From Methanotrichaceae archaeon (GTDB lineage: Archaea; Halobacteriota; Methanosarcinia; Methanotrichales; Methanotrichaceae): a stretch of DNA of 11,970 bases. Below the pieces are notes generated by a model. The model saw only the letters and a list, made by a program, of their open reading frames with translations, had not been told where the DNA came from and made no database searches. The DNA lies in contig DUKF01000026.1 of assembly GCA_013329455.1 (NCBI GenBank), forward strand, positions 1-11,970, in the 5' to 3' direction. Position numbers and translations under genes: made by a program. Each line of letters starts with the position of its first letter. Positions within the stretch are counted from its first letter, which is position 1. This document shows positions 1 through 11,970 of the stretch, one piece after another.

Positions 1-3000
1 GTCGATCTCGTCCAGGGCGTAGAAGGGCGCGGGCCGAAACCTCTGAATCGCGAAGATGAAGGCGAGGGCGGTGAGGCTCTTTTCGCCCCCGGACATCGCC
101 TCCAGTCGGTGGAAGGATTTCCTGGCGGGCCTCGCCCTGATCGTCATCCCGCCACTTAGGGGGTCCTCATCGTTCTCCAAAACGAGGTGGCCCTCGCCGT
201 CGGAAAGACGGTGGAACGTCTCCCCAAAGTTATCGTTGATACCGTCGAAGGCAGCCATGAAAGCCTCTCGCTTCATCTCCTCGTACCGGTCCAGCTTCTC
301 GAGTAGGTCTTCTCTTTCCCTTTGGAGCGTCTCTCTCCGGTCGCGGAGCGTCTCCCTCCGGTCGAAGACCCGGTCGTACTCCTCGATGGCCAGCATGTTC
401 ACGGGCTCAAGATCCTGCATCGACCTCTCGAGGGCGTTGATCTTCCGGATTATCGTCTGGCTCTTGGGAGGCTCTGCCAAGACGTCGACACCGCAAGCCT
501 CGATCTCGGCCCTTAGATCATCGGCAGCAGATTTCAGCTCCTGAGCTGCGCCGTCGGCAGCCGCGATCCGGGCTCTGATCCGGTCCAGCTCCCGGTCGGT
601 GGAGTCGACTTCCCTTCCCTTGGCCATGGTCTTGTCGAGAAGCTGGCTTCTCGAACCCTTCAGGCCGGAGAGCTCCTCCTCGATCTCCCTTTCTTTTCGG
701 GCCAGCTCGGTGAGGGCAAGCTTCGCCTCACCGACCCTCTCGGCCGCGTTGCTCTTCTTCTCGGTGGCCGCCTTCTTCTTCAGTTCACGCGCCTCTTTTC
801 TTGCGGCAAGTTCTGCCTTCCGAGCAGAGCAGCTATCTTCCCTCAGCCGATCGCCGGTGATCTCGGCCTCGATCTCGGAGACTCTCCGCTCAAAGCCCCG
901 GATCTCGGCCTCAAGACCGTCGGCGAGGGCCGACAGCTCCGGGATCTCCGAGCCCTCAAGGGACACTTCAAGGACCTTTGCCCGCACCTCGTGGCTCTTG
1001 GAGTCAGACTCCCGTTCCCGGATCTCTCTTTCCATAGAGTCGAGCTTCTCCCTCACCTCGGCGGCCTCGGCCTTCAACTCAGAGAGCCTCTTTTCCCGGT
1101 CCTCGATGGACCGTTCGAACCGGAGCTTCTGGCCCTCGATCTCCTCCAGCCTGAAGCCGATCTTTGCAATCTCCCGGCTCAGCTCCTCCATCTCCCTTCT
1201 GACGGTGGAGACCTCGCCTTCGACCCTGTCGAGCCTCTCGATCAGCGCCTCCCTTTCGGACTGAGCCAAAAAGACCTTCCTTGCGGCCTCCTCGAGCTTC
1301 TGCCGCTCATCGGCGGCGAACTTGAGCCTGGACTTGAAGTGGCCCCCGGTCATGGCTCCCCCTTTCTCCACGAGGTCACCTTCCAGGGTCACCATCCTGT
1401 ACCTGCCCATGAGCCTGCGGGCCGTCTCCAGGTCTTTCACCACAAGGGTGTCTCTGAAGACGTGCCAGAAGGCCGGAAGGAACCGAGAGTCGAACTGGAC
1501 GAGATTGAGGGCGTAGTCGACGACACCCGGCTCCCTGGGCGCGGCCGGGGGCCTTCCCGACCGTATCTTGTTCAGGGGAAGGAAGGTGGCCCTTCCGGCC
1601 CTCGACCTCTTCAGGCTCTCGATCGCCCTGGCCGCATCCCCGTCGGTCTCGGCTACGATGCTCTGGAGCCTCGCGCCGGCCGCTACCTCGAGGGCCGTGG
1701 CGTGCCCCTCGCCGACCTCGCCTAGCTCTGCTATCGTTCCGTAAAGCCCGGACAGGAGGTTCTGGCTGATGGCGGACCTTATCGCCTCCACGGCCCTGCT
1801 GTAGCCCGACCCCTCTCCAGCGGACCTGAGGCTCGCTTCGGCCCTCGCCTTCTCCATCTGGAGCTTTTGGAGCTTATCGTCAACCTGGGCCATCTCCCGC
1901 CTTATCGATATCCTGGCGGAGTCGAGATCGTCCCTCTCCTCTTCGAGGCTTGAGATTCGGTCCTCCAGACTCCTCCGATCCCGGCTTATCCTCTCTGTCT
2001 CCCGGTCGAGGCCGGCCATCGTCTCTTTGGCCTCGGAGATTTCGAGAGATGCCTCCTCCCGCTCGATCGACCGCCTTCTCGCTGCGTCCAGGTGCCGGTC
2101 CCTTTCCCGCATCAGGTCAGCCACCCTCGACTTGGCCACTTCCCACTCCTTTTTGACAACGGAAAGTTGGTCTCTCAGCTCTGCGTACTTGGCGTCCGCC
2201 TGGGCGATCTTATCCCTGTAGCCCTTGAGGGTCTCCTCCCTCTCCTCGATCTCGGCGAGGATGCTCGCCTTCCTGATGGACCCGTCCCTGATCTTCGAGG
2301 AGAGGGCCTCCGCATCCCGGCTGAGCCGGTCGGTCTCCAGGTAGTCGGACCTCTGCTCGTCCTCAATCTCGGCGACCTCGGCGTCGGCCATCTCGATCCG
2401 GTTCTCTTCAGTCTCGATCTGGCCTTTCCTCTCCACCATCTGCCGCTTGACCTCGATCTGCTCGTCCTCGCCCTTGTAGGTGATCTCGGAGTTCAGCTCT
2501 TTCAGCTCTCCTTCGAGGCTCGATAGCTCGGCCCTCTCCCGATCCAACCTCCCGGATAGCTCCTCATCTTTTGTCCGAAGGTCGAGCCCCTCCCTATCGA
2601 GGTCAGCGAGGTCGGATTCTGCCTCTTTGAGCTTTGCCAAAAGCAGGAAGGCCTCCTGGCGGCGTTTCTCCTCCCGCTGGGCCTGATAGGCGAGGGCCCT
2701 CTCTCTCTCCTCGGAGAGCCTTGAGAGCTGGGATTCGACCTCTTCCAGGATCACGTCGCCCCGATCGATCCTCTCCCTCACCACCTCCAGCTCCTCGAGC
2801 GCCTTCTTCTTCTTCTCGTCGAACTCGGCGACGCCAGCGATCTCGTCTATGATCCTCCTTCTTTCAAGAGGCGACATCTCGATGATCCTGGTGACGTCTC
2901 CTTGCATGACCACGTTGTAGCCCTCGGGAGTGATCCCGGCTCGAGATAAGTGATCGTGAATCTCCGTCTGGGTGCAGGGATTGCCGTTAAAATAGTAGAT

Positions 3001-3336
3001 GCTCTGGTACTTGTTTTTGGTCAGCCTGACCTTCCTAGATATCTCGATGACGTCTTCGTCTACCGGAACGGTCCTGCTGGAGTTGTCGAACTTAACAGTT
3101 ACCTGGGTGAAGTCGGGGTTTTTGCCGTTGTCACCCCGGTATATGAGGTCGGGGAGCCTTTCGGCCCTCATCGCCCTGCTGGACGAGAGAGAAAGGGCGA
3201 ATAGAAGAGCATCGACGACGTTGGACTTGCCGCTCCCGTTGGGACCGGTAATGGCTATGAAGTCGTTGTGTAGGGGTATCACTACCTTCCTGCCGAAGGA
3301 CTTGAAGTTCCTAAGCTCTATCTCCTTGATGTGCAA
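1..3336 (-). CDS. smc: Chromosome segregation ATPase SMC (partial, C-terminal end off the window)
   Basis: SMC is the ATPase of the condensin complex that compacts and segregates the chromosome. The minus-strand frame is open for 1112 codons, from a TTG start to the window edge. The N-terminal ABC half begins with an HIKEIELRNFKSFG motif, followed by the Walker A loop GPNGSGKS (about residues 31-38). Two very charged Glu/Arg-rich coiled-coil arms (about 170-510 and 670-1010) flank a hinge domain (about 520-660) ending in GGAMTGGHF. The ABC signature SGGEKS is at about 1080-1085, and the Walker B segment FYALDEID forms the last eight visible residues. The family is about 1170-1180 residues long, so roughly 60 are missing. 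The TTG start at 3336 is chosen because homologues start there, a GGGTGG ribosome site lies 6 bases upstream, and a TATA-like box lies about 45 bases upstream. An in-frame ATG at 3379-3381 would add 15 unlike residues. The partners scpA/scpB would lie beyond the left edge, if present. Confidence 0.96.
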   Translation of the reverse strand, partial: MHIKEIELRNFKSFGRKVVIPLHNDFIAITGPNGSGKSNVVDALLFALSLSSSRAMRAERLPDLIYRGDNGKNPDFTQVTVKFDNSSRTVPVDEDVIEISRKVRLTKNKYQSIYYFNGNPCTQTEIHDHLSRAGITPEGYNVVMQGDVTRIIEMSPLERRRIIDEIAGVAEFDEKKKKALEELEVVRERIDRGDVILEEVESQLSRLSEERERALAYQAQREEKRRQEAFLLLAKLKEAESDLADLDREGLDLRTKDEELSGRLDRERAELSSLEGELKELNSEITYKGEDEQIEVKRQMVERKGQIETEENRIEMADAEVAEIEDEQRSDYLETDRLSRDAEALSSKIRDGSIRKASILAEIEEREETLKGYRDKIAQADAKYAELRDQLSVVKKEWEVAKSRVADLMRERDRHLDAARRRSIEREEASLEISEAKETMAGLDRETERISRDRRSLEDRISSLEEERDDLDSARISIRREMAQVDDKLQKLQMEKARAEASLRSAGEGSGYSRAVEAIRSAISQNLLSGLYGTIAELGEVGEGHATALEVAAGARLQSIVAETDGDAARAIESLKRSRAGRATFLPLNKIRSGRPPAAPREPGVVDYALNLVQFDSRFLPAFWHVFRDTLVVKDLETARRLMGRYRMVTLEGDLVEKGGAMTGGHFKSRLKFAADERQKLEEAARKVFLAQSEREALIERLDRVEGEVSTVRREMEELSREIAKIGFRLEEIEGQKLRFERSIEDREKRLSELKAEAAEVREKLDSMEREIRERESDSKSHEVRAKVLEVSLEGSEIPELSALADGLEAEIRGFERRVSEIEAEITGDRLREDSCSARKAELAARKEARELKKKAATEKKSNAAERVGEAKLALTELARKEREIEEELSGLKGSRSQLLDKTMAKGREVDSTDRELDRIRARIAAADGAAQELKSAADDLRAEIEACGVDVLAEPPKSQTIIRKINALERSMQDLEPVNMLAIEEYDRVFDRRETLRDRRETLQREREDLLEKLDRYEEMKREAFMAAFDGINDNFGETFHRLSDGEGHLVLENDEDPLSGGMTIRARPARKSFHRLEAMSGGEKSLTALAFIFAIQRFRPAPFYALDEID

Positions 3337-3657
3337 CCTCGACCACCCTTTGCTACTCCAACCCAGTCCGGGACATATCATAAAGTCCCCGGCCTGAAAA
3401 TCCCTCAGGGCCCCTTCGTCCCTGAGAACCCCCGGTCGAACTCTAACTGGAGAATCCTTTGTATCTTCTCATTAAAATACCTATTCAAGGCCCCATATTT
3501 TGTTTTCTCCGAGTTTCGGCTGAGGTTTTACATCATTCCCGAAGGCGGACCCGAGAGATTCTCGGCAGCTCAGACGCCTTCGGCAGGCCTACGCACCTTT
3601 CCGGTCTCTGATCCACTCGCATCAGCCAGAAAGCTTCCAAAGACAGATTAATTAATT
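3337..3657. other. Divergent intergenic region between smc and the exchanger
   Basis: This 321-base gap separates two divergently oriented genes and should hold both promoters. It contains the smc ribosome site and TATA-like box on the minus strand, A+T-rich stretches around 3470-3500, and a small perfect inverted repeat, CCGAGA-GAT-TCTCGG, at 3551-3565. It ends in an ATTAATTAATT stretch next to the exchanger start. The open frame 3331-3651 on the plus strand has no recognisable protein features and overlaps the smc start, so I do not call it a gene. No RNA gene is evident. Confidence 0.5.
3372..3386 (-). promoter_or_regulatory. Putative archaeal TATA box of smc
   Basis: Read on the minus strand, the segment contains TTTATGATA, close to the archaeal TATA consensus. 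Transcription starting about 25 bases downstream would give a leader of roughly 20 bases carrying the GGGTGG ribosome site (3343-3348) just before the TTG start. The upstream in-frame ATG lies inside this box, which argues against its use. Assigned by eye only. Confidence 0.35.
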
Positions 3658-4614
3658 ATGAGGACCAACGAGGAGGCTGGAGAGGCTGGTTTATTGCTGG
3701 AGTTTTTAATCTTCGCCGTGAGCTTGGTCGCCCTCTACTACGGGGCGAAGTCGATCACCGATAGCGCCGTCCACTTTGCCAAGGTCCTGGGCGTATCCGA
3801 ATTCGTGATAGGAGCGACAGTGGTCGCCTTCGGCACGGCCCTTCCGGAGTTTTCAACGTCCCTGGTCGCAATGCTGGTCGACGGGGGCAGGCCGGAGATA
3901 GCAGCAGGAAACGTCCTTGGATCGATCCTGGCAAACACAGGCCTTGCCCTCGGTGGGGCTGCGATCTTCTACGGGATATATATCGATAGAAAGATACTCG
4001 AGACGGACCTCTCCTTCCTCCTCGCCTCGATGCTGGCGGTCTTCGTGGTATTCCTCGATTTCAGAATAACCTGGATAGAGGGGATCTTTTTGATCGCGAT
4101 CTACCTCTCCTTCATCCGTCACGAGATCTCCGAGCACCGAAAGAGCGAGTCGAAGGGAAGCGAGAAGTTAAGGCCTAGGTACCTCGGCCTCTTCCTCGCA
4201 GGCATGGCAATGCTCGCCATCGGTGCTAACTACATGATCGAGGCGATCCGGACAATCTCCGCCACCTTGGGCCTCTCCGAGGCGGTGGTGGCGGTGATTC
4301 TATTGGCGGTGGGCACCTCCCTTCCCGAAATCAGCACAGCAATCGTCGCCGCCAAGAACGGTCGGGGCGATATCGCAATGGGAGACGTCCTCGGCGCCAA
4401 CACCTTCAACGCCCTGATAATCCTCGGGTCGATCTCCCTGGTCCAGGACGTGGCCGTGAACGAGGCATTCATATCAGCGACCCTTCCCGTCGTCGTCCTG
4501 ATCAGCCTCCTCCTCGGGTTCATGGTCCTTGGAAACAAGATCACCAGGTTCGAGGGAAGCATGCTCGTGGCGATATACTTCCTAGAGGTCATCACGATAC
4601 TGACGATACTCTGA
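3658..4614 (+). CDS. CaCA-family Na+(H+)/Ca2+ exchanger (YrbG/NCX type)
   Basis: This is a polytopic membrane antiporter expected to extrude Ca2+ in exchange for Na+ or H+. The 318-residue product has about ten hydrophobic segments in two inverted halves, joined by a charged cytoplasmic loop at about 154-175. The first alpha repeat (about 46-100) has GTALPE with Glu64 and GSILAN with Asn93. The second (about 206-257) has GTSLPE with Glu224 and GANTFN with Asn251. These match the four ion-coordinating carboxylate/amide positions of the Methanocaldococcus NCX structure, except that its second-repeat Asp is Asn here, so ion preference may differ. The start is uncertain. The ATG at 3658 has no ribosome site and sits in an A+T stretch that could itself be the TATA box. 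A TTG at 3694 with GGAGAGG about 8 bases upstream would give the short N-terminus usual for the family. The gene is divergent from smc and convergent with the downstream radical SAM gene. Confidence 0.93.
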   Translation: MRTNEEAGEAGLLLEFLIFAVSLVALYYGAKSITDSAVHFAKVLGVSEFVIGATVVAFGTALPEFSTSLVAMLVDGGRPEIAAGNVLGSILANTGLALGGAAIFYGIYIDRKILETDLSFLLASMLAVFVVFLDFRITWIEGIFLIAIYLSFIRHEISEHRKSESKGSEKLRPRYLGLFLAGMAMLAIGANYMIEAIRTISATLGLSEAVVAVILLAVGTSLPEISTAIVAAKNGRGDIAMGDVLGANTFNALIILGSISLVQDVAVNEAFISATLPVVVLISLLLGFMVLGNKITRFEGSMLVAIYFLEVITILTIL

Positions 4615-8451: not shown

Positions 8452-8865
8452 TCATCTCCCGAAAGTCTCCACGATCCAACTTTCGAGGTCGTCTCTGGCG
8501 GCCCTCAGTGCCAGCATCCTCTCTTCCGCGCCTTCGGCAACCAGGGGGTCTTCGAGCGGTTTATGAGCCCTTCTCTTCCCTTGCGGGAAGAAGGGGCAAG
8601 GCTCCTTATCCCAGTCGCGGATCTTGGCCACGACGTCAAAGGCCGTGCCCCACAGCTCCTTCAGGCTTTTGGACTTTTGGCGAGATACATCTATGCCCCT
8701 CTCAGCCATCACCTCAACCGTCAGGGGATCTACCTCCGCCGGATCGACCCCGGCGCTGTAGGCCAGGTAGCAGTCCCCATAGAGGTGGCGGAGCAGGCCC
8801 TCTGCCATCTGAGATCGGGCAGAGTTGTGAGCAGAGAGGAACACGACCTTCTCCTTTCTGGACAT
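8452..8865 (-). CDS. ArsC/low-molecular-weight phosphatase-like protein lacking the catalytic cysteine
   Basis: The 137-residue product has the fold and length of thioredoxin-type arsenate reductases and related tyrosine phosphatases. The phosphate loop reads FLSAHNSARSQMAEG. It keeps Arg17 and Ser18, but the nucleophilic Cys of C-x5-R is Ser11. The second redox cysteine, usually VCDNA, is Arg83 in KIRDWD, while the third (Cys90 in CPFFP) and the catalytic-type Asp in LEDP (106) are kept. Normal arsenate reduction or Cys-based phosphatase activity is therefore unlikely. It may bind an anion or phosphoprotein, or be decaying. The reading frame is intact. The Ser codon TCT (8833-8835) is one base from TGT, so a sequencing error must be excluded, but the loss of the second Cys argues for real divergence. 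It is convergent with the preceding gene, with 7 bases between stops. The start ATG has no ribosome site, and a TATA box sits about 24 bases upstream, suggesting a leaderless mRNA. Confidence 0.88.
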   Translation of the reverse strand: MSRKEKVVFLSAHNSARSQMAEGLLRHLYGDCYLAYSAGVDPAEVDPLTVEVMAERGIDVSRQKSKSLKELWGTAFDVVAKIRDWDKEPCPFFPQGKRRAHKPLEDPLVAEGAEERMLALRAARDDLESWIVETFGR

Positions 8866-9220: not shown

Positions 9221-9288
9221 GCTTCAAGGTATCCGTTCGATCTCGCATAAATGACCATCCAGTCCCCCTCAAATAAGGAGCTTTCAAA

Positions 9289-9891
9289 ATGGCCGTGGTA
9301 CCGATCGTCTCAGGAGACATAGATTCGCTGGTGATGTGCAAGATATTGAATAACGAGATGCAGGAGCAGCATCCCATCTTCATCGACTTCGGTCAGATAT
9401 CAAACGACGTTGAGTGGGAGTCCTGCAGGAACGTCTTCAAGAGATGCAACTTGCCGCCACCCGAAAAAATAGATCTGAGCGGATACTGCAGATCAATAGA
9501 ATCCGAGGTGAACGGAGACTGCAAGGCAAGCTACATCAACGCCTTTCTTCCGGGAAGAAACCTCATGTCTCTGATGGCGGCAGCCTCCTACGCTTACCAG
9601 AGAGGGATAAAGATAATCGCCATCGACCTACTCTCGGAAAAGAGCCAACTATTCCCGGACCAGACCGAGGAGTTTTTGGTCAACGCGAACTTCGCCATCA
9701 ACTCCGCCTTTGGAGATTACATCACGATACTGACCCCACTGGTAAACTTCGCCAAAGTTGACGTCATCAATATAGCCAAATGGTACGGCCTCCCGATTGA
9801 GGAGACCTTCTGCTGCCACCCGGGAAGAAACGGAATCTGCAAAAACTGCACCGCCAGAAAGGCGGTCATCGATCCCCTCGAAGCGGATTGA
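9289..9891 (+). CDS. Divergent QueC-like PP-loop protein
   Basis: QueC makes 7-cyano-7-deazaguanine (preQ0) using ATP and a zinc site, and supplies archaeosine synthesis in archaea. This 200-residue product is recognisably QueC-like. It has an N-terminal PP-loop (VSGDIDS, 7-13), FGQ (34-36), the very typical FLPGRN...AAASYAYQRG block (86-106), a PDQTEEF segment where QueC has PDCRxEF, LTPL (148-151), and a C-terminal cysteine cluster ETFCCHPGR...CKNC (172-187). It departs from housekeeping QueC in three ways. The PP-loop SGGxDS has Asp at the second Gly, the last zinc Cys is Arg190 with an extra Cys175 added, and it is 20-30 residues short. AAGGAG lies 8 bases before the ATG. The next gene begins 18 bases after the stop and encodes a TIR-like protein, so a defence or signalling role like that of QueC homologues in Qat and type IV CBASS is more likely than tRNA modification. 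This role is inferred. Confidence 0.85.
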   Translation: MAVVPIVSGDIDSLVMCKILNNEMQEQHPIFIDFGQISNDVEWESCRNVFKRCNLPPPEKIDLSGYCRSIESEVNGDCKASYINAFLPGRNLMSLMAAASYAYQRGIKIIAIDLLSEKSQLFPDQTEEFLVNANFAINSAFGDYITILTPLVNFAKVDVINIAKWYGLPIEETFCCHPGRNGICKNCTARKAVIDPLEAD

Positions 9892-9909
9892 AGATCGCAG
9901 GTGGAAGGC

Positions 9910-10425
9910 ATGATCGAGATCATCGACTCCGAAGTTTCCTCTTCCAAAGCTGGCACTTCAGAGATGGAACGGTTGGAGGAGATGGCAAGAAGGCAGATCA
10001 GAAAGGCCCGGCCTCTCGAACCTCGAAGGAGGGTTTTTCTGATATTTAGGGTCGGGGATCAGGATCAGGTCCACGATTTTTGCGGCATGGCAAAAGAGAT
10101 TGACCGCCATCTCGACTTCATAGATTTCTCACTGAAAGTCCATTTTAAAAACGAGAACGCCAAATACGTCCGCCACTGCATCAGCAAAAGGATAGAAGCC
10201 TCTTCGATGGTGGTGGTCCTGGTGGGAAAGACCACCCACGACTGCGAATGGGTCGACTGGGAGATTCGAGAGAGCCTCAAGATGGACAAATTTCTGATGG
10301 CTCTAAGGCTGAGCGATGACGCCTCCCCTAGAATGCCAAACGCCCTGAGAGAACATCGGATCAAGCTCTTGCCCTGGAACCGAAACGAAATTCAACAAAT
10401 TATACGGAAAAACGCCGAGAAGTGA
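9910..10425 (+). CDS. TIR-like domain protein (MTH538/ThsB type)
   Basis: The 171-residue product has an N-terminal extension of about 40 residues rich in Ser, Glu and Arg, followed by a single TIR-like domain. The domain runs from RRRVFLIFRVGDQDQ (strand A and loop), through DFIDFSLKVHFKNENAKYVRHCISKRI, SSMVVVLVGKTT and the hallmark CEWVDWEI, to FLMALRL. This matches the MTH538/ThsB branch, whose members in Thoeris make cyclic ADP-ribose-type signals from NAD+. The Glu of WVDWEI (residue 118 from this start) is where TIR NADases carry their catalytic Glu, so activity is possible. I choose ATG 9910 because AGGTGG (9899-9904) lies 5 bases upstream. The in-frame GTG at 9901 would add three residues. 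It sits 18 bases behind the QueC-like gene and is surely cotranscribed with it. No membrane segment or second effector domain is visible. The enzymatic activity is inferred. Confidence 0.87.
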   Translation: MIEIIDSEVSSSKAGTSEMERLEEMARRQIRKARPLEPRRRVFLIFRVGDQDQVHDFCGMAKEIDRHLDFIDFSLKVHFKNENAKYVRHCISKRIEASSMVVVLVGKTTHDCEWVDWEIRESLKMDKFLMALRLSDDASPRMPNALREHRIKLLPWNRNEIQQIIRKNAEK

Positions 10426-10697: not shown

Positions 10698-10728
10698 AAA
10701 AAAGGGGGTGTAGGCGAAACGCCTACAC
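10698..10728 (-). terminator. Intrinsic-type terminator of mcrA overlapping its stop codon
   Basis: On the minus strand a perfect 9-base-pair stem, GTGTAGGCG-TTT-CGCCTACAC, is followed by four C and six T, with another T-rich run 7 bases on. The mcrA stop codon TAG (10723-10725) is inside the left arm. The structure is the clearest terminator in the window and should end the mcr operon transcript. Confidence 0.8.
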
Positions 10729-11970
10729 TGCTGGCATGACCAGGGATCTCTCACCGGCTGCGCGGAACTCTCTGGCTCCACCCATTCCGTATCCCTTACG
10801 GACGTCTTCCCAGGTGAAGATCAGAGCGGGGTTCGCGAAGCAAACCTTGATCAAGGGGTTGACGGTGAAGGCGTCCATGCGGCCCGCGTGAGCGGCGCTG
10901 GAGATGCCTGCATACTCGCCCTGGTGACCGACGTTCATGGCGTAGTTCGGATAGTTCGCGCCTCTCAACTCAAGGGGACTGCCCTCGTCGCCCTGGTAGC
11001 TGAAGACGTTGGTCGGACCGCACTGGTCCTGCAGGTCGTATCCGAAGAAGCCCATCCTGCCCCAGCCGTCCTTGTGAATCAGGTGGCTGAGGTACCAGGC
11101 AGCAAGACCGGACTGGCTGTTACCGGTCAGGGTGGCAGAGCCGATGGCGCTGGCTGCGGCCATGACCGCAGATCTCTGGGACCCACCGAAGTGGTCCTCG
11201 AGAAGGGTCGGGAAGGCCTCGTACTGCTCCATGGCGTACAGGGTGGTCTCGGTGGCGATGTCCTTGGAGGTCTCGAGCTCTGCAGGAGCCTCTCCCCAGC
11301 CGCCGTACTTGTCCACGCCGTAGTCGCAGGCGTAGTAGGAGAAGTCGTCAAGAACGTCGTTGGTGTAGGCTGCAGTGGCGTACTGGGTGAACCCAACACC
11401 ACCGGACATGTAGCTTCCGAGCCAGATCTGGTCGTAGAGCATGGCACCGGCAGCGACAACGTTCAGAGATACCTGTGGCGGGTCGAAGGCCTTGACCCTG
11501 GAGGTCTGAACCATGTCGGCGAGGAAGCCGAAGGAGAGTCCACGGGCTCGTTGGGGCCTCTGGCCCTTCTTGCGGGAAGCATGTCGGCCATCTGGATGAC
11601 GGCAGCGTGCTTTGCGGCGAAGGCGAGGTCAGCCACCGCGGCCTCACCGGCGCACATGTTGTAGGCGTCGATGAAAGTCATGGACAGCTGCATGGCGCTC
11701 CACCTGGAGGTGGTACCGCCGTCGCAAGTCCTCGAGACGATGGTTGGGATGTGAATGGCCTGCCAGGAGGTCTTGCCCATGGCGGCCTTGATCTCCTCAG
11801 CCTGATCTTCGGGGAAGAGCTTGTTGATATCGACCAGGTACTGGTCGTCGATCTCGTCCGCGAGGTCGTCGTCGCCGGTGAACATCCTGACGTTACAGTC
11901 GTCAACGAGACCGGGGTGGGTCTCAACCATGTGCTCCTGGACCACGGCTGCGCCGGGCATGGCGTGGTTC
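10723..11970 (-). CDS. mcrA: Methyl-coenzyme M reductase alpha subunit McrA (partial, with apparent frameshift)
   Basis: McrA carries the F430 active site of the enzyme that releases methane from methyl-coenzyme M. The start lies off the right edge. The visible part corresponds to residues 137-551 when counted to match the Methanothermobacter protein. Landmarks fall in register: the nickel ligand Gln147 (VVQEHM), His257 (AAKHAAV), Arg271 (PARRAR), Tyr333 ([11 protein letters not shown]), Gln400 (FGGSQRS), Gly445 ([11 protein letters not shown]), Asp450 and Cys452. All five residues known to carry methyl or thio modifications, and the one that becomes didehydro-Asp, are present. One base is missing at about 11543: the Gly279 codon reads GT instead of GGT between the GPNEP and GLSFGF segments, so translation needs a shift there. 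The protein is otherwise perfectly conserved on both sides, so a sequence or assembly error is more likely than a pseudogene in a gene methanogens cannot lose. The gene ends inside a strong terminator hairpin. Confidence 0.95.

Follow-up and report, generated by a model that had tools for sequence, protein, structure and literature searches.

What a QueC-like gene and a TIR gene of the ThsB type are doing side by side in a genome of the genus Methanothrix, and whether they make up a system of their own or belong to something larger, is the question raised by this locus. A sequence-only reading had proposed that the two genes form a self-standing, undescribed archaeal defence system, in which the QueC-like protein might modify the TIR protein. 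The window (the whole stretch of DNA analysed here, 11,970 nucleotides long) contains mcrA and MCR methyltransferase genes, and its nearest named relatives are Methanothrix.

The gene pair in the window

An ORF scan of the window and Pfam searches confirmed two genes on the same strand, one matching PF06508 QueC (1.6e-26) and the other PF08937 ThsB_TIR (7.1e-16), both above the curated cut-offs, and each with a ribosome-binding site of its own (Table 1). The TIR frame is open from 9901 to 10425 (+) with GTG 9901 as a possible alternative start, but ATG 9910 is the likelier one because of the GGTGG upstream, the alignment with relatives, most of which begin at MI or MM, and the gap of 18 bases that it leaves behind the QueC-like gene. 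An MGG hidden behind a mis-annotated TIR start was excluded, given that the in-frame stop of the QueC-like gene lies seven codons before ATG 9910. Upstream, an ArsC/LMWPc-like gene (8452–8865, −) is found 423 bases from the QueC-like gene and, downstream, mcrA (−) lies 297 bases beyond the TIR gene. Both flanking genes are on the opposite strand and therefore the pair forms a stand-alone unit with no other gene in it. Neither ThsA nor CD-NTase nor Qat partners appear among the main genes of the unit or of the window, so that plain membership of Thoeris, Qat or CBASS is excluded for the pair; in all these points the sequence-only reading was right. A sigma-70 promoter scan and an Rfam search gave nothing useful.

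As to the mcrA gene, it is split in the window (10723–11969, −) into two overlapping frames near 11463–11514, while in the M. harundinacea isolate 57_489 (L018) a single mcrA frame continues for 458 codons. The split is probably a sequence error in the window's genome bin.

The AlphaFold2 model of the QueC-like protein has a good core (mean pLDDT 79.6), with values below 50 at residues 176–200 (the zinc region) and 77–84. The model has the QueC/Cap9 fold, and Cap9 (9NTO) was the third-nearest distinct fold in Foldseek after two QueC structures, besides being among the four PDB sequence relatives of the protein. Canonical QueC structures are, nevertheless, closer to the protein than Cap9 is, both in sequence and in Foldseek E-value. 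The TIR model most resembles 8FZ9, a TIR protein from Bacillus cereus, and EcThsB was also matched.

Table 1. Positions of the features of the QueC-like/TIR pair in the window and the basis of each assignment.
Feature	Position	Strand	Basis
AAGGAG, ribosome-binding site of the QueC-like gene	9275..9280	+	sequence reading
QueC-like (PF06508) gene, 200 aa, Methanothrix-type	9289..9891	+	ORF, Pfam, alignment, fold match
PP-loop Asp10 (SGDIDS versus SGGxDS); Gly in 30/30 intact rows	9316..9318	+	alignment
FGQ, residues 34–36; corresponds to the first part of the YxQxHxxE motif; Tyr to Phe, Gly and Gln retained	9388..9396	+	alignment; motif as given in the available part of PMC13329287
Arg90-Asn91 of the PGRN motif, retained	9556..9561	+	alignment
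F122-P123-D124, retained; counterpart of the base-holding Tyr/Asp in QueC and Cap9	9652..9660	+	alignment; roles as given in the available part of PMC13279940
Zinc-site region: Cys176, Cys184 and Cys187 retained; fourth Cys replaced by Arg190 (9856–9858)	9814..9858	+	alignment
GGTGG, ribosome-binding site of the TIR gene	9900..9904	+	sequence reading
ThsB-type TIR (PF08937) gene, 171 aa from ATG 9910	9910..10425	+	ORF, Pfam, alignment, fold match
TIR N-terminal tail, MIEI start, without MGG acceptor; pLDDT below 50, probably flexible	9910..9948	+	alignment; model numbered from GTG 9901
Glu118 (from ATG 9910) of the WE pair, TIR helix; presumed catalytic	10261..10263	+	identical in 24 aligned TIR proteins

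The pair in Methanothrix and a larger cassette elsewhere

Of the nine genomes of the genus, five have close copies of both genes and the other four have a close copy of neither gene; by their coordinates the two genes are adjacent and in the same order in all five carriers. Together with the 15 loci outside Methanothrix described below, this indicates that the pairing is more than chance; the pair recurs well beyond the window, and the conserved adjacency on which the sequence-only reading had staked its proposal is there. Between the five genomes, dN/dS is 0.03–0.12 for the QueC-like gene and 0.19–0.34 for the TIR gene (most pairs with dS of at least 0.4), low values from which we conclude that both genes are maintained by purifying selection, with the stronger constraint on the QueC-like one.

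Regarding the surroundings of the pair, a close copy of the divergent ArsC/LMWPc-like gene adjoins it in 5/5 carriers (truncated by the contig end in G003), and the four non-carriers have copies only about 50–55% identical. One genome that has the MCR methyltransferase gene and no pair (G004) shows different genes after it, with neither QueC-like nor TIR genes in a stretch that is partly masked. Another genome of the genus without the pair (G002) contains a true type IV CBASS (L091, 5953–9106) with PADLOC scores of 262 bits for QueC, 344 for TGT, 379 for the cyclase and 287 for OGG. Its CD-NTase starts with MGGSGG, read from a GTG codon, and its Cap9 is 27% identical to the QueC-like protein of the window.

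When genome contigs were searched with only the QueC-like profile, 18 loci came up, three of the Methanothrix type and 15 others, and in 15/15 of the latter a TIR gene lies directly downstream of the QueC-like gene. Upstream, all 13 loci with enough sequence have a TGT-like gene (L020 was not assessable), and 13 of 14 have an OGG-like one, the exception being L026; in L021 only the end of the OGG-like gene is visible. Pfam searches on L022 and L027 support the parts of this cassette, and the same arrangement was seen in four further genomes. The hosts are as diverse as Methanoregula, Methanomassiliicoccales, Thorarchaeota, Acidobacteriota, Planctomycetota, Pseudomonadota and Bacillota, among others. 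A plasmid search retrieved 13 records with a 48–51% identical QueC-like gene, all from Rhizobiaceae, and the four examined carry the cassette (4/4), with a TIR-like part fused to the TGT. The cassette is rare and scattered: it was found in 3/392 genomes of the window's phylum, 6/236 of the class of G337 and 5/398 of the phylum of G414, centre included, counts that take in the Methanothrix type and also G337, which has a different partner. All ten cassette genomes searched, out of 15, have at least one further QueC-type match.

The TGT-like protein has Cap10 (9NTN) as its best solved relative (E 1.8e-16, against 2.5e-7 for archaeosine TGT), and the two TGT-like proteins scanned match the PADLOC type IV CBASS TGT model. 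None of the OGG-like proteins of L022, L027, L041 and L056 matches the corresponding PADLOC OGG model, so this part of the cassette may be a different OGG; Pfam Ogg-HhH does match those of L022, L027 and L056. Among ten neighbouring proteins scanned, eight are SLATT and the other two an 8xMP membrane protein and a TPR-S protein. SLATT genes are also found in L027 and L041, and none was seen in the window.

The start of the TIR protein deserves attention. In type IV CBASS, Cap9, a member of the QueC family, couples 7-carboxy-7-deazaguanine to the glycine at the N-terminus of the CD-NTase (MGGS), according to the available text of PMC13279940 and PMC11996544; QatB, in the part of PMC13279940 at hand, starts with MGTS. 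The cassette TIR protein begins with MGG at 14 of the 15 loci (from TTG in L033) and with MAG at L032. As a background, a start codon followed by Gly-Gly occurs within the first 40 codons of only 2/190 other ORFs from the 15 loci and four plasmid stretches, and the accessory TIR genes of L027, L028, L041 and L057 are without MGG. Among the best 120 of 3547 TIR relatives, 115 start with MGG, three carry MGG shortly after the start as listed, one has MGS and one MGA, a count biased by the search profile, which itself contained MGG. The intact QueC-like proteins have SGGxDS and the fourth cysteine in 30/30 rows, and mostly Phe/Asp at the place where QueC and Cap9 hold the base with Tyr/Asp. Given these residues and an MGG-start partner, they look capable of Cap9 chemistry, and we predict a Cap9-like action on the TIR protein; what speaks against it is that in sequence and fold the family resembles Cap9 no more than it does canonical QueC. 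With its Cap10-like TGT, its QueC-like protein akin to QueC and Cap9 and its MGG-start TIR protein, the intact cassette has, as judged from sequence, the features of a sister of type IV CBASS with the TIR protein in the place of the CD-NTase.

Several variants were seen along the way. A TIR-like part is located at the N-terminus of the Cap10-like TGT protein in L023, L041, L042, L044 and L057–L060, and the fusion is annotated as TIR in L041, L042 and L044. On plasmid pB of R. etli CIAT 652 (L043, about 2830–4300) the TIR-TGT frame has stops near its 5' end and no listed protein, and the gene is probably broken. The cassette TIR frame of L028 (4463–4855) also ends early, at 130 aa and without the Glu. 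Genes of the PfkB/nucleoside deoxyribosyltransferase type stand beside the plasmid QueC-like genes (L041–L044, about 1650–2830), resembling cluster 4 in the available part of PMC13329287. They are found as well in L045 (3661–6285), beside a QueC-like gene and an HhH-like protein and with no listed TIR gene. In G337 (L056, 5177–10455) OGG-like, QueC-like and TGT-like genes and another gene are followed by a metallo-beta-lactamase protein (PF00753, 9.5e-20) that starts with MGGGSS, a third relative. Carriage by viruses was considered and rejected: a single viral contig matched, distantly (25%), through a phage protein with a glutamine-amidotransferase-like part. On this contig (L040, 7302–8729) that part is joined to the QueC part, and radical-SAM and QueD-like genes adjoin.

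Changes in the Methanothrix version and their possible meaning

In the QueC-like tree, the Methanothrix-type proteins and P0022 form a single clade (support 100/99), nested with intact archaeal forms in a set of 16 rows (95/80). The root of this tree was placed at its midpoint, its outgroup branches are long and it contains no row of canonical QueC, so that the direction of change depends on this nesting. As for the alignments, A1 takes in 36 of the best 120 relatives; A2 leaves out P0121 (identical to the window), A3 leaves out L028 (its TIR frame ends early) and L042 (a near copy of L041), A6 leaves out L023, L028 and the plasmids, and A7 leaves out L021, L028, L042, L044 and also L026 (no OGG).

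There are 52 positions at least 90% conserved in the 30 intact QueC-like rows, of which 37 are retained in all six Methanothrix rows and 15 are changed, the latter including G10D and C190R, each in 6/6. Among the best 120 of 154 relatives, the combination of SGD and Arg is seen only in the seven closest ones (84–93% identical). An Asp at Gly10 is also found in the distant P0022, and P0091 has SDG. P0022 itself is a more distant degenerate QueC-like protein, with TGDIES and a Gln at the fourth Cys. The pocket residues Q36, R90, N91, F122 and D124 are retained in the window protein, which for that reason may still be reactive, even if its ligase activity has likely been lost. In the TIR protein, Glu118 is retained, and several positions common to the intact forms are changed (S45I, R58C in 6/7 and P78H), so that its activity is not assured. 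The Methanothrix TIR proteins start with MIEI, MIVI or MMEI, none with MGG; a distant TIR protein (P0147) has an MIS start. The idea that the QueC-like protein modifies the TIR protein thus stands as a strong prediction for the intact relatives and fails to carry over to the window, where the acceptor glycine and two invariant QueC-like residues are gone.

We also looked for decayed TGT or OGG genes at the locus by tblastn. The queries, two TGT-like proteins and three of the OGG-like ones, were run on the window and on four relatives, and the best match (E 0.035) was at chance level. The five carrier genomes (81.5% complete for the bin of the window, 95–99% for the other four) gave only weak TGT matches (1e-5 to 8e-5). 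One OGG match per genome was obtained in four of the five carriers (none in G005) and in 4/4 non-carriers, on another contig or far from the pair.

The reading that we favour, with a probability of roughly 0.58, is that the Methanothrix pair is a reduced descendant of a likely antiviral cassette of TGT-like, OGG-like, QueC-like and TIR genes, that the predicted tagging chemistry has likely been lost, and that the QueC-like protein now acts as a partner restraining the TIR protein. By the tree, the two genes would be the remainder of this larger cassette and not the self-standing system first proposed. The predicted order of events in the intact cassette begins with the QueC-like enzyme, which would mark the TIR protein with 7-deazaguanine on its N-terminal glycine. 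This deazaguanine tag would be recognised by the Cap10-like protein, after which the TIR protein would produce a signal or use up NAD+; the SLATT membrane proteins are the putative effectors. In Methanothrix the tag would have been lost, which fits the joint absence of the acceptor, the tag reader and the two invariant enzyme residues. Selection appears to have retained the QueC fold with its base pocket together with the TIR enzyme, and for this reason we think that the QueC-like protein binds the TIR protein directly and restrains it until infection, perhaps sensing a base or a nucleotide. A defence unit of only two proteins is plausible by analogy, because QatB and QatC defend against some phages without the rest of their operon (available text of PMC13279940). 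A role in defence is suggested, indirectly, by the patchy distribution, the plasmid copies and the SLATT and TIR neighbours. The earlier proposal of an undescribed archaeal defence system holds as far as a recurring two-family unit is concerned, one that is neither canonical QueC nor Qat, CBASS or Thoeris and has a likely defence role, but bacteria and Rhizobiaceae plasmids carry the intact cassette too.

The retained pocket and the low dN/dS (0.03–0.12) would also suit a protein that is still an enzyme, handling ATP with its SGDIDS loop and either making deazaguanine or transferring it to another amine of the TIR protein or to a small molecule recognised by that protein. We consider this unlikely, given that G10 and C190 are invariant in 30/30 intact rows and changed in 6/6 Methanothrix rows, that the zinc region is modelled with pLDDT below 50, and that both the glycine of the partner and the Cap10-like TGT are missing. 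In a Thoeris-like arrangement, the TIR protein would make a signal of the cyclic-ADP-ribose type, the effector that it serves would be encoded elsewhere and the QueC-like gene would be a passenger; this appears improbable. The two genes are present or absent together in the genus (5/9 both, 4/9 neither), the supposed passenger is the more constrained of the two, and no ThsA-like gene is found among the main genes of the window, to which this search was confined; the PADLOC ThsB models do match the TIR protein (39.9 bits), with the PDC-M50B model slightly higher (41.1).

Slightly more improbable is that the pair is a decaying, non-functional leftover of the cassette. It would explain why two genes and key residues are missing, yet both frames are open in five genomes and neither range of dN/dS (0.03–0.12 and 0.19–0.34, with dS of at least 0.4 in most pairs) resembles decay. 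Finally, the PF06508 match might be taken to mean a housekeeping preQ0 synthase for archaeosine that happens to lie beside an unrelated TIR gene, which we find scarcely credible: a canonical QueC (9.5e-56, 188.7 bits) is encoded on another contig (C64) of the same genome, so the QueC-like gene is not its only candidate preQ0 synthase, a possibility that the sequence-only reading had itself raised against its proposal. The QueC-like protein, moreover, misses the cut-off of the NCBIfam QueC equivalog by far (86 of 150 bits), and four of the nine genomes of the genus do without a close copy of the pair.

To return to the reduced cassette that we favour, type IV CBASS is the established case of protein deazaguanylation and Qat a suspected one, and, if the prediction is true, a TIR cassette with a similar trio and acceptor start would show this modification to be a general means of arming immune proteins. 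We can go one step further, tentatively and leaning ourselves rather against it, and picture deazaguanylation as a swappable arming module, with QueC-TGT-OGG trios tagging three unrelated MGG-start effectors (CD-NTases, TIR proteins and the metallo-beta-lactamase protein) and the Methanothrix branch of the TIR type having shed the chemistry, its dead ligase turned into a sensor or restrainer of the TIR protein. The MGG-start TIR protein is a directly testable substrate. The Methanothrix pair offers a natural loss experiment on which parts went together, as well as a small two-protein unit in which to ask what the QueC fold does beyond chemistry. No description of the TIR cassette came up in a literature search from which subscription papers were mostly absent, and surveys of conflict systems by comparative genomics may note such neighbourhoods. 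A 2026 survey of PF06508 (PMC13329287) has, in its available part, QatC and Cap9 as defence branches and three archaeal, methanogen-rich clusters left unanalysed.

Comparison with known systems

The closest comparison is with type IV CBASS, with which the intact cassette shares the QueC-like, TGT-like and OGG-like genes (one exception seen for the last) and an MGG-start partner, its TGT-like protein being nearer to Cap10 than to the tRNA enzymes. It differs in the partner, a ThsB-type TIR protein instead of a CD-NTase, and in the PADLOC scores of the parts scanned (TGT 66–100 bits, QueC 67–91 bits and no OGG match, against 344, 262 and 287 in the CBASS of G002). The window pair has neither CD-NTase nor TGT, OGG or MGG start. 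With qatABCD the pair has in common a protein of the QueC family next to one with a flexible N-terminal tail. It differs, however, in that there is no QatA ATPase, QatB or QatD TatD nuclease among the main genes of the window, in the size of the QueC-like protein (200 aa versus about 400 for QatC), and in the base-binding pair, Phe/Asp being retained where QatC has Thr/Thr. Thoeris shares with it the PF08937 TIR family, the presumed catalytic Glu and the match to PADLOC ThsB models, but the window unit has no ThsA and has instead a constant QueC-like partner.

Canonical QueC has the same family (PF06508) and fold, and the window protein departs from it in having SGD for SGG, FPDQ for YPDC and three of the four zinc cysteines. 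The SGGxDS PP-loop is replaced by SGDIDS in all six Methanothrix rows, the four-cysteine motif C(x)8CxxCxxC is broken by Arg190 at the fourth Cys, and there is no queD-type neighbour among the main genes of the window, where the radical-SAM genes are MCR or peptide enzymes. With respect to the proposed TIR cassette of the deazaguanylation type, the window differs in having neither an intact QueC-like site nor an MGG TIR start, and agrees with it in the two families and in the position of the QueC-like gene directly before the ThsB-type TIR gene.
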